Shown piece by piece: positions 37,489 to 52,327 of a stretch of DNA of 52,872 nucleotides (positions within the stretch are counted from its first letter, which is position 1; every line of letters begins with the position of its first letter). The translations under genes were made by a program, and so were the position numbers. Source of the DNA: Granulicella sp. GTDB lineage: Bacteria > Acidobacteriota > Terriglobia > Terriglobales > Acidobacteriaceae. The stretch lies in assembly GCA_027365345.1 (NCBI GenBank), contig DAHXNO010000112.1, positions 1-52,872 of the forward strand, given 5' to 3'. Below the pieces are notes generated by a model that searched no databases, was not told the origin of the DNA, and saw only the letters and a list, made by a program, of their open reading frames with translations.

Positions 37489-39456
37489 ATGCCGCCAAGA
37501 GCCTCTTCCGCGGACCTTACGAAAGATCCTTCTGGTGGGCAGGACCGTGGACAGACGGTGGAGCAGATGGCTTTGCGCATCCAGGAGTTCCTGGCCGCGC
37601 ACCCAAAGGCTACCGTGCTGGAAGACGGCAAGGTGATCTTTGATCTGCAGGCCGCCAAGGCCACACTGAGCACGGAGCACGGCCGCTGCACGCTGCACCT
37701 TTGGAGTGAGGAGCGCAACCTGGTGCGGCAGGTGGCCAGCGTGAGTGAGCGGGCGGGAACGCTGCGGCTGGCGACACTGCGCTTTGGCCAGAGACAGACC
37801 AAGTTGCTGGAGCTATGCGGGGAGCGAGAGCGGCGTTCGCAGACCACGCGTGAGACAGCCCGACAGCGTTATGCAAGGACTTTGGAGCGCGTGCTGGAGC
37901 GCCAGTTTGCGCCATGGAAGCCGGAGGGCCTGCGCACGGCGATGGATCTGGAGCGGGGCTTTGGGCCGGCCTACACGCGGGGCATGCTGGTGATGGGTAA
38001 CGCGGCCTGGGCAGTGATTGGGGTGAACGAGCAGGAGAGCGCAGCGACGGTTGATGGGATTCTGGCCCCGGGGATTCTGTGGCTGGACCACTGCCGCGCG
38101 CAGGCCGGCGGGCGGCGGCTGTACCAGGGATTGAAGGTGGTGACGCCGCGGGGAGGGGCGACGCTGACTGGCTCCCGCATGGCGTGGCTGAACAGCGATG
38201 CGGCGAAGTGGGAGCTATGGGAGCTGGATGAGCAGAGTGAAGAGCTGACAGCGCTGGATGTGAGCGACCAGGGAAATGTGCGCACGCGGCTGGTGCATCT
38301 GGCCGATGAGCAGGCGGGGATGGAACGTTTTGCGGCAGGAGTGGAGCAGGTGATGGCGCTGGTTCCGGCAGCGGAGCGAGCGCGGGTGGAGCTGCGCTTG
38401 CGCAATGCAGCCGAACTGGCGTTTCTGCTGCATGGCCTGGAGTTCGCCCGGGTGCGGATGGATCTGGAGGCGAACAGCTTTGCGCGGAGGCTGGAGGTGC
38501 ATGCCGGCGTGGGCGAGCACGAGACGGTGCTGACGGAGGGCAATCGAGAGCGGATCGCCGCGCTGGTGAAGGATCTTTTTGAGCGGCGGCGGGTGACGGA
38601 TGCGAAGGGTGCGCCGGGCGATGCGGAGCGGCGCAGACAGTGGATGGAGCGCGGGATTGGTTCTTCCAGTTCAGCGCCGGCGCATGCCCGGGTTACGGCG
38701 GCGGGGCGGAGCGACGAGCGGAGCCGGATGCGGGATCCGCTGTTCCGGGCTGCGCCTGAGCGCTGGCTGGAGTCTGTGCTGCGCCGGGATCTGACTCTGC
38801 TGACGCGCACGCTGGCTCCGAAGCCGCGGGCTGAAGCCGGCCAAACGAGGGGCGCTGGAGGTATCGGGAGCGAGTTTGCGAACGAGTTGGATCCGGAGAC
38901 GATTGGCAACCGGGCTGAGCCTGAGGCGATGGAGGGCGCGCCGGAGCCGGAGGGCAACCGGTGGCCGGCAGAGACGGCGGAGGGAGTGGAGGGATGGGAG
39001 AGCCAGGTGATTCCTCGTCTGGACCCGCGGCATGTCTACTCGCAGGTTTCCGTGGTTGCGGGAGCGGGTGATCGTGGATTGCTGGACCTGCTGGGCGTGA
39101 CTGCGGACGGGCGGCTGGCGGTGATTGAGCTGAAGGTGGACGACGATCTACAGTTTGCGCTGCAGGGTTTGGATTACTGGGTGAGGGTGCGCCATCACCA
39201 TCGGCAGAGCGCGGATCAGGTGACGGGGATGGGTGAGTTTCAACGCCACGGATACTTTCGGGGTGTGGAGCTTTCACCGCTGGAGCCGCGGCTCTATCTG
39301 GTGGCGCCTTCGTTGCATATCCATCCTGCGACGGAGAAGATTCTGGGGTATTTTTCGCCGCGCGTGGAGTGGAGTCTGCTGGCCTTGGATGAGCGCTGGC
39401 GGCAGCAGATTCGCGTGGTCTGGCGGAAGCAGAGCGGCCGCGCAGGCCGCTTGTGA
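37489..39456 (+). CDS. Unknown protein with a C-terminal PD-(D/E)XK-like nuclease motif
   Basis: The 655-residue protein is not from a family I can name. Residues 1-390 are mixed and helical with no catalytic motif (WSEERNLVRQVASVSERAG; TLERVLERQFAPWKPEGLRT; LNSDAAKWELWELDEQSEEL). Residues about 390-505 are low complexity and acidic. The last 150 residues look like a restriction-endonuclease fold: Asp533 in RGLLDLLGV, then Glu547 and Lys549 in LAVIELKVDDD, and the helix FALQGLDYWVRVRHHH. The D-x13-E-x-K spacing fits PD-(D/E)XK nucleases such as the NucS C-terminal domain. The gene is convergent to the DISARM operon, separated by 320 bp with a palindromic repeat. It could take part in DNA repair or defence; neither is shown. 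Confidence 0.72.
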   Translation: MPPRASSADLTKDPSGGQDRGQTVEQMALRIQEFLAAHPKATVLEDGKVIFDLQAAKATLSTEHGRCTLHLWSEERNLVRQVASVSERAGTLRLATLRFGQRQTKLLELCGERERRSQTTRETARQRYARTLERVLERQFAPWKPEGLRTAMDLERGFGPAYTRGMLVMGNAAWAVIGVNEQESAATVDGILAPGILWLDHCRAQAGGRRLYQGLKVVTPRGGATLTGSRMAWLNSDAAKWELWELDEQSEELTALDVSDQGNVRTRLVHLADEQAGMERFAAGVEQVMALVPAAERARVELRLRNAAELAFLLHGLEFARVRMDLEANSFARRLEVHAGVGEHETVLTEGNRERIAALVKDLFERRRVTDAKGAPGDAERRRQWMERGIGSSSSAPAHARVTAAGRSDERSRMRDPLFRAAPERWLESVLRRDLTLLTRTLAPKPRAEAGQTRGAGGIGSEFANELDPETIGNRAEPEAMEGAPEPEGNRWPAETAEGVEGWESQVIPRLDPRHVYSQVSVVAGAGDRGLLDLLGVTADGRLAVIELKVDDDLQFALQGLDYWVRVRHHHRQSADQVTGMGEFQRHGYFRGVELSPLEPRLYLVAPSLHIHPATEKILGYFSPRVEWSLLALDERWRQQIRVVWRKQSGRAGRL

Positions 39457-39557
39457 GGGATGGTCTGCGAAGGCCGCTGCGCAGCGTCAGCGGCGGATGG
39501 CTTGTCTATGAGGAACCACAGCGACGGCGCTCGGTGAAGGGCCGGTGGTGCGCGGTC

Positions 39558-39677
39558 CAGAGCATTTTCCCCGTTGATGGGTATCCAAGGGCGATTGTGC
39601 GGTGGTGTTTTCCTTGGGGAAAACGCCCATCCATCCATCTGAATCTGCAGGGCTACACCTGCGGGGAAAATGCTCTG
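39558..39677 (-). repeat. Dispersed palindromic element, copy 3 (inverted)
   Basis: The ends are perfect 16-bp inverted repeats (CAGAGCATTTTCCCCG at 39558-39573, CGGGGAAAATGCTCTG at 39662-39677). The inside has the hairpin GTTTTCC-TTGG-GGAAAAC. The 120-bp unit is the reverse complement of copy 1 at 1214-1329, including GATGGGTATCC, CGATTGTGC and GGGCTACACCT-like stretches. It lies in the spacer between the unknown putative nuclease gene and the drmC stump. The rest of the spacer, 39457-39557 and 39678-39776, holds no gene that I can see. Confidence 0.85.
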
Positions 39678-39776
39678 TCGCGATCTCTGGGCCCTGGACG
39701 CCATCCTCAATCCCTCTGCGACCGCCTGCCAAAAGACGGCGTAGTAACATCAACCTAGCCGCCGCTCAACTTTCAA

Positions 39777-39881
39777 CTACGCGCGGGACATCCTCGGCCT
39801 CCCTGCTCGGATGGCTGCAGCTAGACTTCGCAGATCATTCTCTCTTAGTTGGGCGAGTGCTTCTCCGGCTTTCAGTGTCAT
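39777..39881 (-). pseudogene. drmC: Probable 5' stump of drmC (DISARM phospholipase D-like gene)
   Basis: An ATG at 39881-39879 overlaps the drmB stop by ATGA, exactly as the other DISARM gene junction drmA-drmB and drmMI-drmA. The frame codes for 34 residues (MTLKAGEALAQLRENDLRSL, then AAAIRAGRPRMSRA) and ends in TAG. In class 1 DISARM the gene after drmB is drmC, whose N-terminus is a helical segment of this type (LxxLxxxDLxxLAxAIRxGR). I therefore read this as a drmC cut off after about 34 codons; the HKD phospholipase D motifs are absent from the 320 bp beyond. It could also be a tiny intact gene, but the position argues for a stump. Confidence 0.5.
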
Positions 39882-41713
39882 AGCTCCATGAAAAACTCTG
39901 CTTGCTGTCCCTGTGCTGTCCTCACTACAAGGGACCTGTCAAGCAGATCGTTCTGTTGTTCACAACTTGTCTCCGCAACGAGAAGGCATCCGTGGCAAGC
40001 AGCGCCTAGTAGAAAGCGTCTCTCATGTGGGCTCTCCGGGAGATGTTGCGAACATACTGGATCGTTCGAGCAAAGGGTACCAAGGTCAATCGCACTGCGA
40101 ATCGTGCTCGCGATTCGACGCCCTACCTCAATCATTCCTCCAAGAGTTCCTTCGGAATCCGAACTGCCGGTATAGAGCAATATACCGTATCCAATATTTT
40201 GGAGCGCATAAATGCGTTCTCTGATTGAACTCGCGGGGTAACCGCATTCGAGCGCAATGGTTGTGATGAGCAAGTGCGCGAATGAATGAAGCATGATGTA
40301 GGCGGGGCCAGCAAACTGCCTGCTAGAGGAGCTGTGTTCCGCTTTCCATGCATCAAATCCACGCCTAAGCTGAACAGCTCTTTGCGCCACGGCAGGGCGT
40401 TGGAGCCACGCCTCAATAGATTGACGGCTGAATTGAATAAAAATGCCTTCGCCACGATTTTCAATGGAGGGGACCCAAGTCACGTCACGGGCCAATTCAG
40501 CGCGACGCACTCCCATATCGAGCTCGCCTTCGGTATCTGGTGCTGCGGCTTCAAATCGTGTAAATCCGACCAAGGCCATGACTTCTCGAAGTCTTTGTAT
40601 CAATATGACCTTTTCAATTCCGTTCATCCACGGCTGGTTCCATTCCGTTCTCGGAAGAGCTCGGGCGTAAAAAATTCCCTCTGGGCGGTCATCTCCGATT
40701 TCTTCGGAGACGGAGATTAAGGTTTCTAGTTCTGCAGATTTTACAGATTTGTCTTGGACCTGTTGAGGATTGCGGCGAGCTTGAATGCCGGCCCAAACCT
40801 CCGCGTCCGTGATGCCGCTGAGGGCCTCGCGTACCTTCGTTTTCTTACGCTCTTTGGCTACATCCGCTTCATCTTCTGCAGTCTCCAAGAAATCCCATAC
40901 CGCGGATACTGCATTCCGCACGGATTCTGACCGTTCGGGCAGCGAAATGACGCTCATGCTTTGCGGGAAATAGGCATTGGATGCGGTGCGGACCAGTAGC
41001 CTATTCATCTCCTGACATGACTCTTTCATCGCGGGACCCAACCACGGACGGGCTCCATCACAGCGTCCGAACACCTCAGCCTTTTGGATCGCAATCTGTG
41101 CCATGCTTCGCTCAGCTTTGCCACAGGAGCATCGAATCCAAATTTCCGATAGATCACCACTCGTCCCCCGTTCATCCATAAAGAGGGGTCTGCCTTGATT
41201 GCGGCAAGTGTTGTCGTTTTCGTGGAGAAAGAAATACCAGTCTATGTCGCCTATATGTCCGTATCGACACGCCCTGACGAACCGGACGGGGACGACCTTG
41301 AGCTTCTTTCTCGTTTCAGGGTCTTCAAAAACATTGCCTCTTGAGAGCGCTCGCACATTGATTAGATATCTACTCCGTCGAGACTCGTCTTGGCTGTTTC
41401 CTGGAGGATCTTGCGTCACGAACCACTCCGGGAACCGATACACACGTACCCCGGTGACCCGCGGGTCATTTATATCTCCATCTCCGGCCGAAGGTGGGGT
41501 TTCGAGTCGAACCGATGGGACGTGCAACAGGTTCGCAATTTTAGCGCTGAGGCGAGGTTCACTGATAAGGTCGCGATCACCAACCCACTCATCAAGGCCT
41601 GCAATCAGAACCGACCTTTCCGGTAGATCGGTCATTGCGCCAGGACCAAAGGTCGTGATGAGTTGCCCTTGCCGAAGCTGCCCTTGCGGTCTCTTCCTCT
41701 TTTGTGTCGTCAT
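39878..41713 (-). CDS. drmB: DISARM protein DrmB (DUF1998)
   Basis: DrmB is the DUF1998 partner of the DrmA helicase in DISARM anti-phage defence; the two form the DrmAB complex that recognises foreign DNA. The 611 residues show an N-terminal segment (QGQLITTFGPGAMTDLPERS), RFPEWFVTQDPP, a possible zinc-binding part with RACRYGHIGDIDWYFFLH, NTCRNQ and IRCSCG, and the C-terminal DUF1998 domain: YIMLHSFAHLLITTIALECG, GYGILLYTGSSDSEGTLGGM, and CSNDPVCSQH with GAACHGCLLVAETSCEQ. Its ATG overlaps the drmA stop by 4 bp, so translation is coupled. Downstream of it an intact drmC is missing. Confidence 0.9.
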   Translation of the reverse strand: MTTQKRKRPQGQLRQGQLITTFGPGAMTDLPERSVLIAGLDEWVGDRDLISEPRLSAKIANLLHVPSVRLETPPSAGDGDINDPRVTGVRVYRFPEWFVTQDPPGNSQDESRRSRYLINVRALSRGNVFEDPETRKKLKVVPVRFVRACRYGHIGDIDWYFFLHENDNTCRNQGRPLFMDERGTSGDLSEIWIRCSCGKAERSMAQIAIQKAEVFGRCDGARPWLGPAMKESCQEMNRLLVRTASNAYFPQSMSVISLPERSESVRNAVSAVWDFLETAEDEADVAKERKKTKVREALSGITDAEVWAGIQARRNPQQVQDKSVKSAELETLISVSEEIGDDRPEGIFYARALPRTEWNQPWMNGIEKVILIQRLREVMALVGFTRFEAAAPDTEGELDMGVRRAELARDVTWVPSIENRGEGIFIQFSRQSIEAWLQRPAVAQRAVQLRRGFDAWKAEHSSSSRQFAGPAYIMLHSFAHLLITTIALECGYPASSIRERIYALQNIGYGILLYTGSSDSEGTLGGMIEVGRRIASTIRSAIDLGTLCSNDPVCSQHLPESPHERRFLLGAACHGCLLVAETSCEQQNDLLDRSLVVRTAQGQQAEFFMEL

Positions 41714-44700
41714 TGATCCTCATCCAGATCGAAGCCTTCTAGGCTCCGTACCCACATATTTACGTTCGGTTCGACATTGCGCAGCGAGCGATTTGCCCTG
41801 AACTTCATCTTCCAGTGACCACCTGGAAGATTCTTTAGTGCTGGATCGAGAAAATCCTGTAGGAGTGGCGCACCGGAACCGTGCTCGTGCGGGTTGTACT
41901 GCAAACCTGCGCCAACTTGCCTCTGGTCGTGCACGACTCGCGCCCATTCATCCAGCAGATCGGAGCAGCGCTGCCTAACCCTCTGGCGAAGGCGTTCTCT
42001 CTCGGCTGTATCGAGTTTGTTGTGATTGAATGCGCGGTCCCCAAAATGTTCAACTACGGACTCCAAAGCATTTCTTTGGTTCGTAATCTCCATCGCGCCG
42101 AGAGGCTGCGTCATTGATTCCTGCCCTAGCCGCGCCAGCGCAACCAGCGATGCAGCGAGTCCTCGGTCGAGTGCGCGTGGCGAGAACGGTGTTACGCTGG
42201 TTGCTTCGACGCTGCGGTAGAAGCTCTCGTGGTATGCACAGAATCGTTCGTAGTGCGAACGGTCGCGCGGCTTGTGAACATTGAGGATTGTCACCACCAG
42301 GCCGGGACGCTCAGGATCTCGGCCAACTCGGCTCGTTGCCTGAATATATTCGGCGGACGCCTTTGGCTGTCCAAAGACAACCATGAGGCCGAGGCGCGTA
42401 ATGTCGAGTCCCACTGAAATCATGTTGGTTGCAATCGCAACATCAGCATGATCCTTTTCCGAGAGCAGGCGCCCTAATTTCCTCTTCGCAATTGAGACTT
42501 TCGACGTGTCTACGCGACTTGTCAGTTCAACTGGCTCGTAAGCAATCTCTCGGTCCGCGAAAAGCCCAACTGCTTCGCCTACCCGCTTTCGTGAAGCATA
42601 TCGCTCCAATCGGTTGCGAACTTCGTCTTCGATCAGCCGTCTGGCACCGCCCAGTTCGCGAAGAGCATTGAAGTAGCCCACCAGCGTCATATATGGATCG
42701 GCAGGATTTGGCGAAGTCTTCTTCAACTGGTCATAGGACAACTGCCCCGCGCCAAGCAACGCTAGGTACACCCTTAGCATTGCCACTTTCGGACTGCGCC
42801 CCTGAGCAGCAATGCCGACGTATAACCGTGGATTTGTCTGCGGATCGCCTTCTTCCGGGATGAGAGTATGAGCAAAGAAGGAATCACGCCTATTGGGTCC
42901 GGGGGGTGGAAAGATGTCAACCTGGTCCCGGTTGAAAAGTGCTTGAATCTGGCTATCTGCTCTGCGGACCGTCGCCGTCGATGCAACAATCTTGGGTCGG
43001 ACACTTCCTCGAACGGCGAGTTTTTCAAGCGCAGTTTCGTAGAGGCCGACCATCGTGCCCAGCGGTCCTGAGATGAGATGAAGTTCATCCTGAATGATCA
43101 GGTCGGGCGGAAGGAGGTTCCCGCCGGGTAGCATGGAGCCTTTTCCCGGTTCCATTGGCCCGTAAAATCCAGCACGATCATACCGCTGTACGCGGCCAAA
43201 GAACCCGGCAATCTTTCCGGTCCATGGCATCCCGGCGAATTTGTCTACGGTCGCAATCAAGAAACATGGAAGCCGGCGATACATAGGCTCATCGACCGCT
43301 ACAATCGGAAGCGTTCTGGCTCGGTTGAAATCGCAGTCGCGGTTGATGCAGGCAATGAGCAATTCATCCGGGTAATCCCTGTTTGCCCGTCCGTTCGCTG
43401 TCAGGCGGAATGATTCGCGCTGGAACTTCGTGCCGCACCACGGACACTCCTCCAGCGGGATGGGAGAAGGTTTGCTGCTGTCATTCCAGAACGTAATCGT
43501 GCGGCGGCGTGCAGTTTCCGGATGATCGCGGTCCTTGCTGCCCATCTCGTTCGGCGTAGCGGCGCGTCCGACCCATAGACCGATTTCGAACGGCCAAGTT
43601 CCAAGCGCTTCATCGTTCTCGCGCATCAATTCCAGGGCGCACATCAGCGTCGCGGCACGACTCAACTGGTCAAGCGTTAGCAGGCGTAGGGTATAGCGCA
43701 TCAAGACGCTGAGGCCCGCGCCCGTTACTCCAGGATTGCGGAGCCGTCGCAGGATCAGCGTAAAAGCGGCCAACCCAAGATACGCCTCGGTCTTGCCGCC
43801 GCCTGTTGGGAAGAAGAGCAAATCGACAACCTCCCGGTCATCACCATTCGGCTCGGCAATTCCCGGTAGGTTCATCAATAAAAACGCGAGCTGGAAGGGC
43901 CGCCACGCTGGCGGTTTCACTGACTCCACCGTCTTCTGTTGCATCGGGCCGAAGCGGCGGCGGGCGGCGGTTGCCATTGCCTGATTTGCGACGCAAAAGG
44001 CTTTCAGGCAATCGGGCTGATTGAGGAGCTTGATGCCGTTCTCGATCCGGTTCGCCGCAACCTTGGCGCGATCCAGCAAAGCCTGCGCTGTCTGAGTTCT
44101 TTTCAGGGGAGAAGCAGGAATCGTGGCTCGCTGCGCCTCAATCCATTCCCGATAGTGCTCAACCAGCGGCATCAACTTCCGAGCTGCATCTGCGCCGTCG
44201 GCAAGCGTGCCCAGTACATCCATGCCCAGCGTTATACCTTCGATCTTGGCAGGTGCAACACGTTCCACCTGCGCGCGAGGAATCCAGTAGGTGCGAATCT
44301 CACGGGCATCCCCGTATGCCGAAACGTTGTGGCCAACTGCGTACTCGCCCACGTCTCGGTATTGAAGGTCGGCAACATTCTCGTCCCAATCGTCCGACAT
44401 CAGCCCAACGGTATTCGGTCGCGGCAGGAAGGGGCCGTCCGCGGTCAAGACCAATTCAGCCTGAAAGGCAAAGGACTCATCCTTGTACTCATCGGCCTTG
44501 GGGGTGCGACGGTTCACGAGGAAGACGGAAATGGTCCGCGCGTCCGGCGGCAATCCTCCATCCTCTACGATCCGGCCGACAGGCTGCACCATGAGTGCAA
44601 CACGAAGTCCATTGCTATGTGGAACCTTGTGTTCCGTGGGCTGGTCCAGCCTTTCGGGTATTTCCAGTGTCAGCGTCTCTTCGCGCTGCTCTCGGGGCCA

Positions 44701-45108
44701 TTGTTCTGCTGCTCCGCCGTCACTCTTTCGGCGATAGTCGCCCCAGCGAACATGAACCTTGAGAGCCTTTGCTTCCTTCGGAAGCAGAACACTGATGCCG
44801 ATCGAACTGGGCAGATACTTCTCGCGCGCGGCGGCGGCGCGTTCGGGCTCTGCGTCATCCTCCACCCCGGCTTCGCCGCTGGAATCCAAATCGTCATCGG
44901 CCTCAACGTCGGCGCGTTGTTCCGCAGGCGCGTCGAGCGGGGCAAGAAAGCCGGTAAGATACCAGCGCGACGGTGACTGTGGCAGAATCTCGGCGGGATC
45001 ACCCAAGACCGAATCCGGTTCAACTTCCGGGCCTACCAGATCGAGTCGCAGCGCCTCGACGAGTTTGTTGCGTACCTTTGCGGATGTAACAGCCATGCTT
45101 GTCCTCAA
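41710..45108 (-). CDS. drmA: DISARM helicase DrmA
   Basis: DrmA is the large SF2-type helicase core of DISARM. The 1132-residue protein has an N-terminal region of about 400 residues (VRNKLVEALRLDLVGPEVEP; RWYLTGFLAPLDAPAEQ), a Walker A at about residue 430 (VVDLLFFPTGGGKTEAYLGL), the DExH-like box in LIIQDELHLISGPLGTMVGL near residue 670, VASTATVRRADSQI, and the helicase C part ATNMISVGLDITRLGLMVVF, ATSRVGRDPERPGLVV. The C-terminus includes HDQRQVGAGLQYN. It overlaps drmMI by ATGA upstream and drmB by ATGA downstream, so the three are co-translated. Confidence 0.92.
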   Translation of the reverse strand: MRTSMAVTSAKVRNKLVEALRLDLVGPEVEPDSVLGDPAEILPQSPSRWYLTGFLAPLDAPAEQRADVEADDDLDSSGEAGVEDDAEPERAAAAREKYLPSSIGISVLLPKEAKALKVHVRWGDYRRKSDGGAAEQWPREQREETLTLEIPERLDQPTEHKVPHSNGLRVALMVQPVGRIVEDGGLPPDARTISVFLVNRRTPKADEYKDESFAFQAELVLTADGPFLPRPNTVGLMSDDWDENVADLQYRDVGEYAVGHNVSAYGDAREIRTYWIPRAQVERVAPAKIEGITLGMDVLGTLADGADAARKLMPLVEHYREWIEAQRATIPASPLKRTQTAQALLDRAKVAANRIENGIKLLNQPDCLKAFCVANQAMATAARRRFGPMQQKTVESVKPPAWRPFQLAFLLMNLPGIAEPNGDDREVVDLLFFPTGGGKTEAYLGLAAFTLILRRLRNPGVTGAGLSVLMRYTLRLLTLDQLSRAATLMCALELMRENDEALGTWPFEIGLWVGRAATPNEMGSKDRDHPETARRRTITFWNDSSKPSPIPLEECPWCGTKFQRESFRLTANGRANRDYPDELLIACINRDCDFNRARTLPIVAVDEPMYRRLPCFLIATVDKFAGMPWTGKIAGFFGRVQRYDRAGFYGPMEPGKGSMLPGGNLLPPDLIIQDELHLISGPLGTMVGLYETALEKLAVRGSVRPKIVASTATVRRADSQIQALFNRDQVDIFPPPGPNRRDSFFAHTLIPEEGDPQTNPRLYVGIAAQGRSPKVAMLRVYLALLGAGQLSYDQLKKTSPNPADPYMTLVGYFNALRELGGARRLIEDEVRNRLERYASRKRVGEAVGLFADREIAYEPVELTSRVDTSKVSIAKRKLGRLLSEKDHADVAIATNMISVGLDITRLGLMVVFGQPKASAEYIQATSRVGRDPERPGLVVTILNVHKPRDRSHYERFCAYHESFYRSVEATSVTPFSPRALDRGLAASLVALARLGQESMTQPLGAMEITNQRNALESVVEHFGDRAFNHNKLDTAERERLRQRVRQRCSDLLDEWARVVHDQRQVGAGLQYNPHEHGSGAPLLQDFLDPALKNLPGGHWKMKFRANRSLRNVEPNVNMWVRSLEGFDLDEDQ

Positions 45109-48100
45109 AAGAGCTTGGGCTCAGTTTCTGCCTTGGATTTCCTTTTCACTTTAGCCTTGGAGGGCCGTTCAGGGGTGATCTCCTGCGGCGCCGCTTGCAA
45201 GGCGGCGCGCTCGCGATTCAGCGCCAGCAACCGCGCCAACACCTCATCGTGAATCTCCTCGGTCCAGCGGTAGCGATATTTCTTCTGCTTTGCGCGGCCT
45301 GAACCAGAGTCATCGTCCTCTTCTTCTTCGTCGAACTCGGGGAAGAATTCACAAACAGGATGCAAGTCGGTCCAGCCGTAGGCATCCAGCACCGCACGAT
45401 CCATCGCGTCATGCAACTCGCGGAGCCGGATGATGTCTGGCGACTTTTCATCGGGGCGATGAAACCGATTGTAGGTCTTGGTGAGACCTTCGTTGTTCCT
45501 TACCATCAGAGCCGCGCGAAATTCGTAGTATTCCTTGCCCGCCTGCTCCAATGCCTCGTTTGCATCATAACCATCCGGAAATGCGAAGGTCTCAAAACAA
45601 TCACTCGGCGTGTAGCGTAGATCGTCTTTCATTGACGACGCCATGAACCGTGCCCAGACCTCGTGTGGACGCGACTGAAGCGCTGCAAACATTCCGAAGG
45701 ATTCGTCGGCCACCACTACAGCGCTATCCGCGAAAATGAATTGAGATGTTGTCCGAGTAAATGTGTGCCAAGGATTTACGCGAGATGTGCAGAGCGCCGC
45801 TGTAACTCTTCTTAATGCGCGGGTTAGTCCGGGTCGCTTTTCGGCGTATTGCCACCAGCGCTCTCTGAGTGCATCTCGATTCTGCCCATCACGTTCCGGC
45901 TTTACTCTCTCTTCAACAATTGCTAATAAATCAGGCCAATCGGAGGCAACGGGATGAGGGTAGTCTGGCGCGACGATTCCGTCGCGCAATTGCTCTCGCT
46001 GAATCTGCTCGGTTAAGCGAAACCAGCTGTGACCAGATTCCTTGCGTTTCAGTGGAAAGTCCTCGAAATTGATCACAAATCGGTGGTGTGCATGAACTGG
46101 GCTATTGTTGACTTCCTCTCCGCCGAGATATGGGAAGATTCGCTCCGCGTTCTGCGGGTTCGTCGCGACGAGAGCGTGCATGTGAGCCAGCGAAGACGCC
46201 GCTCCCTTCGTATCTGTATCGTCGAAGGTGAAGCCCATTCCAAGCACAATGCTACCTTGAAAGCTCTTACCCGCATTGTCCTCCAATATCGCTGGATCTT
46301 CGTTTCCACCGGCATGAAACAGGAATGCGGTAACTCGATCTACCATGCGACTACCCAGCAGAAACGGCCCCGGCATTGCGCCCTTGGCCACATGCACGAT
46401 GCTCACGATAACCGCGGCTTCGCCCGGCCACTTGTAGCGTTTGTTCGCTCGGTAAATTGTTCCGCCGTGGTTGCAAATCCAGCGCAGCCCGCTCGAACGG
46501 GTGTCGCCTTGAGCAATCGTATTCGTAGCAATCAATCCAAAGCAGCCATTGGGCCGCAGAGCATCAAAGGCGCGGCGGAAGAAGTGCGCGACCAGATCTG
46601 CATTGCCGTGCGACTCAGCATGGATCGTCTTCAGCCAGTCGATATAGCCTTCCGGCGAGCCATCGATAATGGTGTTCTTCCCCGCAAACGGCGGGTTGCC
46701 GACGATCACATCGAAGCCGCCTTGCGGCCTCAGCGTCTGATCTAAAGCGAAGACTTCCGGGAACTCCAGCTCCCAGTGAAACGGAACAATCGGCTTTTCG
46801 AGATGTCGCTGTTCGTGCGCAAGTTCCTCCAGCGCGACTCCAACGGGGATGTCCGGCGGATTGCCGAAGTTCGCACGGACATCCTCCTGACGCAGTAACA
46901 AGACATTGCGCCGGGACTTGCGATTCTCACCGGCAAAAAATGCTCCCGCTAGCACATCTCCCACATTGCGGATGAGCGCCAACTGCCCTTCTGCCTTTGC
47001 GAGTTGCTGGGCCGACTGCAGGTAAGGCGTATCTTCCCGTGCCTCCAGAAGTGTCTTGCGTGCCGCCGTAGCGGAGGTAATACGGCTACGTAGTTCCTTC
47101 TCGATGTACAGCTCCTGAGCCTTTGGATTGGGTTCCCAATCCAGGGCGGCAATCTGCCGCGCAGAAAGTCCAACCAGCGAGTCGCCATGGCGCAAGGAGT
47201 GGTCGAGAAAGGTGAACTCGTGATCGCGGGCCAGCGTCGCCAGCCACAGCGAGAGCTTGGCCAGATCGACGGCCATGGGATTCTTGTCCACCCCATAGAG
47301 GCAACGCTGCGCCACCAGCCGGCGCGCATGGAGAAGCTCATCTTCGTCGGGCGGCAGCGCGGGCGTCTGGTCAGGATGGTGCCACGCCTGCACCAGGGCG
47401 TCACCAAGTTGACGGCAAGCCTCCACCAGAAAGGCTCCAGAGCCCATGGCTGGATCACACACCTTGAGCGCGAGAATCTGTTCCGGCGTTGGATTGTCGC
47501 CAAGGTTCTTAAGAATGGGTGCGAGAGCCGCTTCGACAATCGGCTGCGTAAGCGACCGCGGCGTGTAATGCGATCCGCTCCGGCGCCTTTCTGCCGAGGG
47601 CTGGAAGATCATGGAGCCAGCAGGCACCGGAGCCGGTGTCACGTTCTTGGCAATGCGCTTGTCCAGTGCAGCGATCAGCCCGTCGATGGCATCGGCTTCT
47701 TTGAGTGCGCGCTCGGCCTGACCGGTCAACTTCTGGTCAGCCGCTTTGCCAAGCCACTCATTTCGCTTGGCAGCGGGTACGGCAAGGAGTTCAACGAGGT
47801 TGATGGTAATGGGTGCGCCGTTACGTTTCTTGGACCTGAGCGCAATCGACGGTCCCTTGGCAACGTGAAGCTCGAAGCCCATCATGGCCTCGTAAACACT
47901 GCCGATTTGCTCTACGTCGAGGTTGCGGTAGCTGAGGCGTTCGCCGTCGAGGATGAGCAGCTTGGTCAACACCCGGTAAAGAACGCCATCCGGTACGCGA
48001 GGGATGAGAACTTGCGCTGCGTCGGAGCTGGTTCGCCCCTCCAAAAAAGGATAGCGGTCTGGATCGAAAAGGTATCCCTTGCGGCCGGGAATGCGCAGCT

Positions 48101-49130
48101 CGCCATGGCGAGCGCCCTGATAGATGAGGCGGAAAAGAACGAGGAGCCGTGCCCATGCGCCGTAACGCTGGTCCATGGTGTCGGGATGCTGCGCCTGATC
48201 TTCGCGCAGGCGCTCAAATAGATCGCCAACTGAGTAGTTCTTTTCGAAGATCTCATGGGAGGAGATCAGGCCCCGGTCCTCGGCATACAGAATGAAGACC
48301 AGGCGCAACAAGACCGTAAGCAGGCCGGCATAGACCTGGTTTGGATCGTCTCGGAGCACCTCGGCCAGAACGCTGGTCTGGTTGTGTGCTTCCTGGAAGC
48401 CGCGCAGAAGATCGAAAAGTGCTTCCATCACCTGGCTGGCGAGCTTGTTTGAAACCAGGTTTTGATACTTCCGACTGGCCGCGAGCAACGCTGGCAGCCG
48501 TTGCTCATCTGCGAGTGTGAATAACCGCTCGGCTGAAAGAAGCATGTGCAAGGCGGCGAGGATAGGACGGCCAGCCACCTGAACCATTTCGCTGACTTTG
48601 AACGTGATGTGGCCGCTGGACTCGCCTTTGGGGGCGTATACGAGGCGGATTGCATCTGGACTGACGAGCAGGCCCGCTGGAATCGAGGTCTCGCGCAAGA
48701 GCCGCTCAAAACGAGCCTGTGGCGAAGCGTGCCATCGCCGCGGTTCCGGTGCCGGTTGGGTATCAAAGTCGCCAGCCACTTTGCTGATAAGAAGAAGCGG
48801 ATTGTCGCCGTCCTTGACGACGTAGTCAGGGCAGATCACTTCGTCATAGCCCGGAACTGAGATGGTCAGCGCTTCATCCGGCACTGCGAGGTCGTCTGGC
48901 CGCCACTTAAGAACTTCAGTTGCGAAGCGCGGGAAGTCCGTGAGCCTGGGAACGGCGTTGCCTTCACCATCTTGCGGAAGCACGGCGAGAAATTCTCGGT
49001 GCAAAGGCACGGAGTTGCGGTTGATTGCGGCACCAGCCTCCAGCAATGCCGGAGTGGAGACGACAACACCAACCGGCTGGACATAACCAATCCATTCCTG
49101 ATGAGACAACGCTGTCGGATCGTAGGCCAT
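45105..49130 (-). CDS. drmMI: DISARM class 1 adenine methyltransferase DrmMI
   Basis: DrmMI is the N6-adenine DNA methylase of class 1 DISARM, marking self DNA. The 1341-residue protein resembles Eco57I-type enzymes. The N-terminal part (residues about 60-170) looks like a decayed nuclease domain, with ICPDYVV and LLLISKVAGDF where an active ExK would be expected. The central methylase core starts at GSHYTPRSLTQPIVEAALAP, with the SAM motif VCDPAMGSGAFLVEACRQLG at about residue 555 and catalytic NPPF in FDVIVGNPPFAGKNT near residue 810. The C-terminal part is a target-recognition region. It starts two bases after the drmD stop and overlaps drmA by 4 bp. Confidence 0.9.
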   Translation of the reverse strand: MAYDPTALSHQEWIGYVQPVGVVVSTPALLEAGAAINRNSVPLHREFLAVLPQDGEGNAVPRLTDFPRFATEVLKWRPDDLAVPDEALTISVPGYDEVICPDYVVKDGDNPLLLISKVAGDFDTQPAPEPRRWHASPQARFERLLRETSIPAGLLVSPDAIRLVYAPKGESSGHITFKVSEMVQVAGRPILAALHMLLSAERLFTLADEQRLPALLAASRKYQNLVSNKLASQVMEALFDLLRGFQEAHNQTSVLAEVLRDDPNQVYAGLLTVLLRLVFILYAEDRGLISSHEIFEKNYSVGDLFERLREDQAQHPDTMDQRYGAWARLLVLFRLIYQGARHGELRIPGRKGYLFDPDRYPFLEGRTSSDAAQVLIPRVPDGVLYRVLTKLLILDGERLSYRNLDVEQIGSVYEAMMGFELHVAKGPSIALRSKKRNGAPITINLVELLAVPAAKRNEWLGKAADQKLTGQAERALKEADAIDGLIAALDKRIAKNVTPAPVPAGSMIFQPSAERRRSGSHYTPRSLTQPIVEAALAPILKNLGDNPTPEQILALKVCDPAMGSGAFLVEACRQLGDALVQAWHHPDQTPALPPDEDELLHARRLVAQRCLYGVDKNPMAVDLAKLSLWLATLARDHEFTFLDHSLRHGDSLVGLSARQIAALDWEPNPKAQELYIEKELRSRITSATAARKTLLEAREDTPYLQSAQQLAKAEGQLALIRNVGDVLAGAFFAGENRKSRRNVLLLRQEDVRANFGNPPDIPVGVALEELAHEQRHLEKPIVPFHWELEFPEVFALDQTLRPQGGFDVIVGNPPFAGKNTIIDGSPEGYIDWLKTIHAESHGNADLVAHFFRRAFDALRPNGCFGLIATNTIAQGDTRSSGLRWICNHGGTIYRANKRYKWPGEAAVIVSIVHVAKGAMPGPFLLGSRMVDRVTAFLFHAGGNEDPAILEDNAGKSFQGSIVLGMGFTFDDTDTKGAASSLAHMHALVATNPQNAERIFPYLGGEEVNNSPVHAHHRFVINFEDFPLKRKESGHSWFRLTEQIQREQLRDGIVAPDYPHPVASDWPDLLAIVEERVKPERDGQNRDALRERWWQYAEKRPGLTRALRRVTAALCTSRVNPWHTFTRTTSQFIFADSAVVVADESFGMFAALQSRPHEVWARFMASSMKDDLRYTPSDCFETFAFPDGYDANEALEQAGKEYYEFRAALMVRNNEGLTKTYNRFHRPDEKSPDIIRLRELHDAMDRAVLDAYGWTDLHPVCEFFPEFDEEEEDDDSGSGRAKQKKYRYRWTEEIHDEVLARLLALNRERAALQAAPQEITPERPSKAKVKRKSKAETEPKLF

Positions 49131-49132
49131 TG

Positions 49133-52100
49133 CTACCTACCTCCTTCCGACATGGGCCACAGATAGACAATCCCAACCGGCTCAATGCGCTTTGCTCGAA
49201 TGGCATAGATGTCGCGAATTCTGGCTGGCTCTGTAGTCAACTCGATCTCAAGTTCATCCAGCCGCCGATTCCAATGACGGCGATCCGCATTGAGCTGGCG
49301 CAATTCCTCGTCCCGGAAGGGCAGTATCCTCTGGCTGTCCTCCAGCTTCTTTTCAAGAATGTGTTTCCTCTGGGATTCGAGCAATACGCGCATCTGGTTG
49401 GATTCATCCTGTCCGCGCTTTGAGAGCATTTGCGTGGCGATTGTCGCGTACTCTTCACCGCGCTGTTGCAAGTGGGAAAGCAGTTCTTCAATATCGCGGC
49501 CTACGGAGGCGCGCAGAGTCTCTTGGATGGTTTCGTTCGTGGTGCCGCCAAGCAGGAGAGCCTGGTCAAGCAAATCGAGTGTCTTCAGCTCCGCCTCTCG
49601 GGCATATGGCTGCAAAGGAGACTTGCGAATCGCGGGATCAATCCAGCGGGCTGTGATCGTGATGATCTCTTCATGGAGACGGGCCGCTCCCTGGCCATAC
49701 AAAGCTAAGCGGCCGAGGAGCACCACACGAGGAATGGAATCGCGGGTCTGAGCAAGGCAGGCACGGGAGAGATCGTGATGCACGAAACCTTGGGAGAGAA
49801 AACGACCAAGGAGTCGCTGGACAACCCTTTGCTCCAAATGGAGTTGAACGACTTCATCGGTGACAATGCCTGGGTCTTCAAATACAACCGGTCGAATGGG
49901 CGATGTCCTGCGCCATTCAAATAAACGCTGGTCGTTTGGCTTAGGTACACGCAAGCTGTCCATTGTCTCTGCCCAGGATGCCTGAATGTCGTCCAGCTTG
50001 GGGAGGGCGAATTCTCCATTGCCGGTTGTTTTCAATGGCGGCCCATTCAGCAGTTCAAGAGCACAGGAGATCGCAGCGCTGAAATGTTCCTTGTCGAGCC
50101 CTACTTCCTTTCGTGAGCGCTCCATCATTGATCGGAGTTCGTCTATCGATTCTCGCAAGTCATTCTGCCGTTTACGATCAGACTCCAGTTCTTCTTGGAT
50201 TGCCGACTGCTTTTCTTCGTCGAGCTGCGCGTCTTCGATGTCCCTCTGGATGCGTTCAATTTCTCGGCGACGAATGCCATGGATGAGAAGGTCGTCCAGC
50301 TCGTCATCGATTACTTTCGAAAGGCTTCCAAGCTCATCTCGAATTGTCTTTGTTTTCCTGATAATGGTTTCTAATATCCGATCTTCTGGACGGTCCAGAT
50401 AGACGAAGTAGTAGCAGAAGACCTTTGGCGCAGGTTGCAGCTTTCGGTCGATGCGACCGTTACGCTGCTCCATGCGGCTCGGATTCCACGGCACATCAAA
50501 ATGAAATAAGTGGTTGCAATGCGCTTGGAGATTGAGCCCCTCACGGGCGGCGTCGGTGGCAATCAGGATGCGAAGCGGATTCTTGTCTGGGTCTGCGTTG
50601 AACGCATTCTTGATCTGCTCGCGCTCATCTTTCGGTGTGGAACCGCGAAAGATGTTGATGCGGTCGAGAGCGCCATCAGAATCAGCGATCGACGCTCTTA
50701 GCATCTTCTCCAGGTAGCGAAGAGTATCTTCGTACTCGGTGAATATGATGATTCGAGTCTGATTCCAATGCCCGCCGGGGAGCATGTTCTCGTGAATCCA
50801 CTCAGATATTGCTTGGACACGCGCATCTGGCTCGTAGCGATTTGCCTCTGCAACGTCTGCCATTTCTTTAAGTAGTTGCTGTTCCCGGGATTCATCTACG
50901 GGTGGTGCCACAGCAGCAGTCGCGGTTGCAAACTGTAATTCTTCTTCCGCGGCTAGTTCGGTGTCGCTGACGTTCGCGCGATCGTCGTCGCTGCTCACCC
51001 CTCCTTGGAGGAGATTCAATTCAGATTTTGTGGGTTCCGATACAGTGACGAGACTCCTCCGTTGCTTCTCGACTGTCTTCAGATGAACCTTCAGCGTTCG
51101 CGCAAAGGCTTCAATTGAAGAAAAGAGCCTTTGCTGGAGGCCGCAGATCAACAAGCCAGATGCCGCCTGCGCCTTCTTGGAAGCCCCTTCTAGTCGGGCT
51201 TCGCGGACTTCTTGATATTCGGCGAGCAGCGTTGCTAGTCGGAGTTCCGGCGTCTCAGGTGGCAAGTCGCGCAAAGTGATGCATTCCACGATTCGCTGAG
51301 GGAAGCCTCCTTGAATCTTGCGAAGATCCTCCTTAATCCTCCGAACCATCACATCTTCGCGGCTCTGCTTGGTAACTTTTACTCCGCGACAGAATCTTTG
51401 GGGGTCGAGGATTTCCAAGAGTGCGGAAAAGCTATTTGAATGCCCGTTGTGTGGCGTGGCGGACAGAAACAGGCGGTGCTCGAATCGAGGCGCAAGGGAT
51501 CTGACAGCATGGGTCGTTTGAGAATCAATAGCGTATCGTTGCCCACCTGCTGGAGCCGCATGGTGCGCTTCATCAAGAATGAGGAGTGTTCCCGGCCGAA
51601 AATCTCCGAGCCAGTCTCGAAGACTGCCTGAGTACGCTTCGTCTATGAGAAGGCGGTGTGAAATGAGGAATCGCGAGTGAGTAGACCATGGATTAACGCT
51701 GAATCCACGTTCACGTCTCACACGTTGAACATAATCCTTATCAAGAATCTCGAACTGCAGGCCAAACCTCGCGGACAGTTCCTCTTGCCACTGCAACAGC
51801 ATGGAGGGAGGGCAACTAACCACGATTTCCTTGATCTTTTTCCGGAGCAGGAGTTCGCGAGCAATGAGGCCTGCTTCAATTGTCTTTCCCAGGCCGACAT
51901 CATCAGCGATGAAGAGGTTAACCCTCGGAAGGCGCAAAGCTTTACGCAGAGGTTCAAGCTGGTAAGGGTCGAGGCGAATCCCGGCCCGAAATGGCGATTG
52001 CAGTAGCCGTGGGTCCGTCGAGGTGACGCAGTTCCAGCGAAGTGTATTGAGATATGCCGCGAATTGTTTGGCAGGGTCGAATCCACGCTGTGCTATCAAT

Positions 52101-52327
52101 TGCCAATTCTCGCCGTTTCGAATCTCGGCGTCGAGCTCATTCTCCCAGAGGACCTCCAGCGTTTGTCCTTGGGCATCATCATCGACGCAAGAAAGACGAA
52201 CTAAGGTCATTTCTGCGGTTTTTGGCGCAGGGGCGACTTGTTCGACAAGATAAAGACGTTGACGGACATGAACAACTGTCCCGACGTCTGGCAATGCAGT
52301 GTTGTGAATGGATTGTGCGGTTGTCAC
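49133..52327 (-). CDS. drmD: DISARM class 1 SNF2-like helicase DrmD
   Basis: DrmD is the SNF2-family ATPase of class 1 DISARM. The 1064 residues carry the helicase motifs in order: Walker A in FIADDVGLGKTIEAGLIARE at about residue 140, motif Ia in SCPPSMLLQWQEEL, the DEAH box LLILDEAHHAAPAGG near residue 247, motif III LFLSATPHNGHSNSF, then RIIIFTEYEDTLRYLEKML, ILIATDAAREGLNLQAHCNH, and motif VI PSRMEQRNGRIDR near residue 620. A long coiled-coil rich part follows. The start is a GTG at 52327 without a strong RBS, so the exact start is not sure. It is the first DISARM gene; a short ORF and a Fic gene lie upstream on the same strand. Confidence 0.91.
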   Translation of the reverse strand: MTTAQSIHNTALPDVGTVVHVRQRLYLVEQVAPAPKTAEMTLVRLSCVDDDAQGQTLEVLWENELDAEIRNGENWQLIAQRGFDPAKQFAAYLNTLRWNCVTSTDPRLLQSPFRAGIRLDPYQLEPLRKALRLPRVNLFIADDVGLGKTIEAGLIARELLLRKKIKEIVVSCPPSMLLQWQEELSARFGLQFEILDKDYVQRVRRERGFSVNPWSTHSRFLISHRLLIDEAYSGSLRDWLGDFRPGTLLILDEAHHAAPAGGQRYAIDSQTTHAVRSLAPRFEHRLFLSATPHNGHSNSFSALLEILDPQRFCRGVKVTKQSREDVMVRRIKEDLRKIQGGFPQRIVECITLRDLPPETPELRLATLLAEYQEVREARLEGASKKAQAASGLLICGLQQRLFSSIEAFARTLKVHLKTVEKQRRSLVTVSEPTKSELNLLQGGVSSDDDRANVSDTELAAEEELQFATATAAVAPPVDESREQQLLKEMADVAEANRYEPDARVQAISEWIHENMLPGGHWNQTRIIIFTEYEDTLRYLEKMLRASIADSDGALDRINIFRGSTPKDEREQIKNAFNADPDKNPLRILIATDAAREGLNLQAHCNHLFHFDVPWNPSRMEQRNGRIDRKLQPAPKVFCYYFVYLDRPEDRILETIIRKTKTIRDELGSLSKVIDDELDDLLIHGIRRREIERIQRDIEDAQLDEEKQSAIQEELESDRKRQNDLRESIDELRSMMERSRKEVGLDKEHFSAAISCALELLNGPPLKTTGNGEFALPKLDDIQASWAETMDSLRVPKPNDQRLFEWRRTSPIRPVVFEDPGIVTDEVVQLHLEQRVVQRLLGRFLSQGFVHHDLSRACLAQTRDSIPRVVLLGRLALYGQGAARLHEEIITITARWIDPAIRKSPLQPYAREAELKTLDLLDQALLLGGTTNETIQETLRASVGRDIEELLSHLQQRGEEYATIATQMLSKRGQDESNQMRVLLESQRKHILEKKLEDSQRILPFRDEELRQLNADRRHWNRRLDELEIELTTEPARIRDIYAIRAKRIEPVGIVYLWPMSEGGR

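Follow-up and report, generated by a model that had tools for sequence, protein, structure and literature searches.

The question raised by this locus is what the short open reading frame behind drmB of a DISARM operon represents, how the gene to which it belonged was cut short, and whether the genes left beside it can still serve in defence. The window, by which the whole stretch of 52,872 nucleotides is meant, had been predicted from its letters and reading frames to carry a class 1 DISARM operon, and this was borne out by NCBIfam and PADLOC profiles, which identified four genes on the minus strand. The gene drmD (49133..52327) encodes a SNF2-like helicase of 1064 amino acids (NF038317, 1116.8 bits with a cut-off of 610; PADLOC DrmD), and drmMI (45105..49130) an adenine methyltransferase of 1341 amino acids, residues 7 to 1336 of which align with positions 7 to 1339 of the 1347 positions in the PADLOC DrmMI profile. 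Next to them, drmA (41710..45108) encodes a helicase of 1132 amino acids (NF038325, 1159.2 bits, cut-off 950) and drmB (39878..41713) a DUF1998-type protein of 611 amino acids (NF038324, 579.9 bits, cut-off 240). All four genes are of full length and free of internal stops; they fill the stretch 39878-52327, and the start of drmD lies 545 bases away from the end of the contig. Compared to their counterparts in G024, a genome of the same genus, the four proteins are 72–83% identical and align over practically their whole lengths, and the closest DrmB with a named source belongs to Terriglobus roseus (83%). Type I DISARM requires all five genes according to a passage of the PADLOC paper (PMC9252829). 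Measured by this rule, drmD, drmMI, drmA and drmB are present and drmC is reduced to 28 N-terminal codons, with no copy found elsewhere in the genome, so that the locus is a derivative of a type I system, not a type I system. The rule also calls for drmE to be absent, and the stretch 39878-52327 is taken up by the four genes.

The open reading frame downstream of drmB (39777..39881, minus strand) comprises 34 codons and is translated as MTLKAGEALAQLRENDLRSLAAAIRAGRPRMSRA. Its ATG overlaps the drmB stop codon as ATGA. The same coupling had been claimed for the two other gene junctions, which is exact for drmA/drmB (ATGA) and only approximate for drmMI/drmA, where the overlap is TTGA if translation does begin at this TTG; there is no overlap between drmD and drmMI. 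Of the 28 relatives with a full-length drmC, 17 have a start codon that shares NTGA with the drmB stop, which makes the ATG of the stump the usual drmC start. When the stump was aligned with 29 N-termini of DrmC proteins from class 1 systems, neither the observed mean nor the maximum score was matched in any of 2000 shuffles, and a profile built on these N-termini scored the stump at 27.9 bits. The best match lay within the first eight residues of DrmC in 26 of the 29 proteins and elsewhere (residues 115–127) in the three others (L071, L072 and L073). In the profile alignment, the homology to DrmC ends at residue 28. The 34 residues taken alone were not matched by any PADLOC or NCBIfam model.

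Judged by these alignments, the frame is the start of drmC in its first 28 residues. The original prediction of a drmC reduced to a 34-codon stump therefore stood as far as the gene start is concerned, but only 28 of the 34 codons belong to drmC (39796..39881, minus strand, 28 codons plus two bases), the remainder being the end of an IS256-family insertion sequence. As for the features of DrmC (NF038319), the N-terminus directly after drmB is present and the PLD domain with its HKD motif is absent, the stump ending before this domain. Neither an HKD motif, the absence of which had been noted before, nor the remainder of DrmC was found downstream of the stump in any frame, and a frameshift or stop codon in an otherwise present drmC was ruled out on this ground. 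Most DISARM PLD nucleases possess an N-terminal four-helix bundle resembling Cas11, as stated in a passage of Bell et al. (2025, PMC12458937); the stump would retain only the beginning of such a bundle.

The sequence replacing the lost part of drmC was traced by searching positions 39457-39800 against 28 genomes of the genus, whereby approximately 39675-39796 turned out to be a dispersed repeat. Among the matches listed, copies in the same genome were found on contigs C66 and C75 (98% identity), C114 (94%), C115 (93%) and C113 (91%) and at a second site on C75 (86%), besides matches in three other genomes (G295, G127 and G169), all copy numbers of this end being at least those given. When the window was aligned with 11 copies, all similarity set in at one point, the sequences before it being unrelated; in the window, this point is position 39795. 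At other sites, both in this genome and in the genus, the end of about 120 bp likewise stands next to unrelated sequence. The insertion sequence begins inside codon 29 of the stump, and everything from the third base of this codon onward, including the TAG stop, is IS sequence. Two complete copies were found (C113 and C114; 1519 and 1517 bp), which are bounded by imperfect terminal inverted repeats. In the copy on C113, a Mutator/IS256-type transposase is spread over two reading frames that overlap, with PF00872 above the cut-off in both pieces. What is left in the window is the outer ~118 bp of the right end (39678..39795, plus strand), without transposase, identical to the C66 copy at 119 of 121 positions and to one of the C75 copies at 118 of 121. 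Members of the IS256 family produce a target duplication of 8–9 bp. Neither of the two complete copies showed such a duplication, and in the window a single IS end survives, which counts somewhat against the history proposed below.

At its far side, the remnant is fused at 39678/39677 to a palindromic dispersed repeat of 120 bp (39558..39677) with perfect inverted arms of 16 bp. The arm has 51 matches in the genome at up to two mismatches, compared to none for the reversed control. A further copy of this repeat (~116–120 bp) lies at 1214-1329 of the window, with arms like CAGAGCATTTTCCCCG, and related sequences occur in other genomes of the genus; the repeat looks like a small mobile or REP-type element. 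Among the loci compared, the junction string occurs only in those covering this site. Approximately 1.4 kb of the insertion sequence and roughly 235 drmC codons are missing at the scar, taking the 264-amino-acid DrmC of T. roseus as reference. The palindromic repeat as the direct cause of the break was ruled out, since it starts about 120 bp past the break and the IS end fills the gap. Further downstream, a convergent gene encoding a protein of 655 amino acids without a Pfam family (37489..39456, plus strand) marks the border of the locus. It is found in 24 of the 28 genomes of the genus, and in at least 11 of the 19 loci examined another conserved gene comes after it. The comparison with empty sites covers this border, the contig ending soon after drmD on the other side. 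No RNA families or tRNA were found in the window.

An insertion with a later deletion very probably explains the truncated drmC. Starting from an ordinary class 1 operon (drmD-drmMI-drmA-drmB-drmC), an IS256-family element would have inserted into drmC between 39796 and 39795, just past codon 28. The element, except for its outer ~118 bp, would then have been lost in a deletion together with about 235 codons of drmC and the intervening DNA, the deletion ending at the palindromic repeat (39677). We infer this order of events as part of the simplest history, an insertion and then a deletion up to the palindromic repeat. Translation would start by coupling to drmB, enter the IS end and halt at its TAG after 34 codons, so that no PLD nuclease would be produced from this gene and the remaining system would presumably consist of DrmD, DrmMI and DrmAB only. 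Because the remnant is identical to other copies in the genome at 118–119 of 121 positions, the loss of drmC appears to be recent.

No intact drmC, the presence of which would have undermined the original prediction, was found elsewhere, neither in trans nor as part of a split locus. In the whole genome (208 contigs), the best score with NF038319 was 18.4 bits against a cut-off of 133, the best E value with the DrmC of T. roseus was 0.4, and searches with these two and with PF13091 gave nothing above the DrmC cut-off. The PF13091 matches in the genome are helicase-fused proteins on contigs C176 and C182. The first (L100, 6121-9237) is a protein of 1038 amino acids with PLD, helicase and DUF3427 parts and is closest to the PADLOC models of type IV restriction enzymes. 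The second (L101, 2369-7248) is a PLD-helicase of 1051 amino acids located directly behind an HmaB-like methylase of 575 amino acids, with which it probably forms a further defence pair. A proposal that DrmAB may recruit other PLD nucleases is found in a passage of Bravo et al. (2022, PMC9142583); to regard the proteins on C176 and C182 as candidates for such recruitment is speculation. The two closest relatives of the locus, in G024 and in T. roseus, carry a full drmC at the same place.

The frequency of such losses was determined for 66 loci with a DrmB match, which were counted if DrmB reached an identity of 43% and 900 bp or more were available downstream. This applied to 48 loci, 42 with drmC and six without. 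After accounting for two duplicate pairs and removing L161, a plasmid locus added for its missing drmC, drmC follows drmB in 40 of 45 comparable loci. The five without it are the window, a locus of G097, the locus L084 and two loci of G564. Of the 18 loci dropped, 13 had a DrmB below 43% identity; DrmC was detected by profile in four of these (L010, L011, L019 and L149) and not in the others (L012-L018, L083 and L147), where a distant DrmC could be missed. The other five had less than 900 bp downstream, four of them (L060, L061, L077 and L080) without a visible DrmC and one (L140) with it. The DrmC profile drew on 28 of the loci counted, which match it by construction. Among plasmid records with a DrmB at least 45% identical, DrmC adjoins in nine of ten; in the tenth, from Thiodictyon, drmA and drmB are followed by genes on the opposite strand.

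The drmC-less loci differ in what they have kept. In G097, only residues 808–1063 of DrmD are left and no DrmC above the cut-off is encoded in the whole genome; its drmMI and drmA are fused in frame (L098, 10302-14756), joining the first 614 residues of DrmMI to residues 279–1131 of DrmA in a single open reading frame of 1484 amino acids. With its cut drmD and this fusion, G097 is a wreck and was rejected as a second working class 1 system without drmC. L084 contains drmD and drmB sequence, drmMI and drmA being absent in 11.5 kb. In G564, a genome consisting of one contig, full-length drmD (L153, 4716-19106), drmMI, drmA and drmB are found without drmC. The gene after drmB in this locus encodes a DUF4365 protein matching the PADLOC candidate models PDC-M02A. 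The second locus of G564 (L152, 8797-14260) is 97.7% identical over 5406 bp to a locus of G704 (L154, 8706-14945). In the latter drmC is intact, whereas in G564 it matches over an N-terminal stretch only; neither drmD nor drmMI was found beside drmA-drmB in the stretch covered at either locus. In G619, the open reading frame after drmB (L155, 1-807) runs off the contig; it contains a NACHT domain and does not match DrmC.

The loss of drmC with all other genes intact had been regarded as an in-nature test of dispensability, drmC being reportedly dispensable in the Bacillus class 2 system that was examined by experiment. This expectation was not supported, as the insertion sequence still is 118–119 of 121 positions identical to its copies and no relative with the same drmC loss was found that would allow selection on the other genes to be estimated. 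Since the loss looks recent, the intactness of the four genes says little in favour of a dispensable DrmC. There is about an even chance that the operon stands at the start of decay, the loss of drmC having either disabled the system or followed its disuse. The wrecked class 1-like operons without drmC in G097 and L084 are in line with this, and the apparent recency accounts for the other genes being still open; drmD, drmMI, drmA and drmB, however, do not carry any disabling mutation.

It is almost as plausible, if short of an even chance, that the four genes still work and that the loss of drmC is tolerated, with DrmAB either blocking or unwinding phage DNA alone or borrowing another PLD nuclease. 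The full length of all four genes agrees with this, as do the two PLD-helicase proteins on C176 and C182, the G564 locus that retains full-length drmD, drmMI, drmA and drmB without drmC, and the frequent absence of drmC stated by Bravo et al. (2022, PMC9142583). Against it stand the apparently recent scar, given which intactness needs no selection, the presence of drmC in 40 of 45 comparable loci and the wrecked state of two other loci without it. The dN/dS ratios between G564 (drmC cut) and G704 (drmC intact), approximately 0.50 for drmB and 0.29 for drmA, are not decisive between function and decay. Between the window and G024, pN is 0.10–0.11 and pS is saturated for drmA and drmB, which reflects old purifying selection and is silent on the time since the loss. 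Taken together, ongoing decay is slightly more likely than continued function. A broader reading, according to which class 1 DISARM sheds drmC repeatedly and the four-gene form works as a nuclease-free, DNA-blocking defence or with borrowed PLD proteins, is tentative and rather unlikely; it is suggested by the IS scar in the window, the cut drmC of G564 beside the 97.7% identical copy of G704, and the four-gene set of G564.

Far less probable is an assembly artefact, in which drmC would be split by a complete insertion sequence, or remain whole in some members of the population, and the IS end would be misjoined to the palindromic repeat. The join brings together two dispersed repeats, the draft consists of 208 contigs, and C66 and C75 both break off about 140 bp into this same IS end, showing that the element breaks the assembly elsewhere. 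On the other hand, the remainder of drmC was found on none of the 208 contigs, the two repeats have hardly any sequence in common where they meet and the contig is continuous without N; even if the join were false, drmC would still be interrupted by the insertion sequence. That the 34 residues form a functional product of their own, such as a small peptide binding to DrmAB, can practically be dismissed in spite of the intact start and coupling and the 28 residues that are still DrmC-like, as the C-terminal end is chance IS sequence, little of the N-terminal domain remains, and the preservation is explained by recency. At the DNA level, 40 of 78 bases are identical to the drmC start of G024.

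With truncation by an insertion sequence and a subsequent deletion as the preferred history, the window carries a class 1 operon with a naturally knocked-out drmC, and the cause of the knockout is visible. Among the DISARM papers listed in a literature search, no title or abstract opening reports an IS scar in drmC. DISARM without drmC was already known, and the case is a real, modestly interesting one in which the cause of the truncation is explained. By itself, it neither settles the need for DrmC nor demonstrates continued defence by the other four genes. Annotation rules demanding all five genes will miss such loci, and under the PADLOC rule this one would go unreported. The near-identical drmA-drmB loci of G704 and G564, with and without drmC, may be the better natural pair for a test of DrmC.

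Compared to known systems, the remnant shares with IS256-family insertion sequences what its complete copies show, namely the PF00872 transposase, a length of about 1.52 kb and imperfect terminal inverted repeats; it differs from complete elements in that only the outer ~118 bp are left, and a target duplication was not seen. The operon has the same four genes in the same order and the same drmB/drmC start region as the class 1 (type I) DISARM of T. roseus (L052) and G024, in contrast to which its drmC stops after 28 codons in the IS256-family end and yields no PLD nuclease. The locus L153 of G564, from the same phylum, likewise has the full four genes without drmC, but there a DUF4365 protein is encoded next. 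In L152 of the same genome, drmC is cut after an N-terminal stretch similar to that of the window, but drmD and drmMI were not found beside drmA-drmB in the stretch covered. With the drmC-less operons mentioned in a passage of Bravo et al. (2022, PMC9142583), the locus shares DISARM genes without drmC; that passage gives no cause for the absence, whereas here both the cause and the remnant of the gene are visible.
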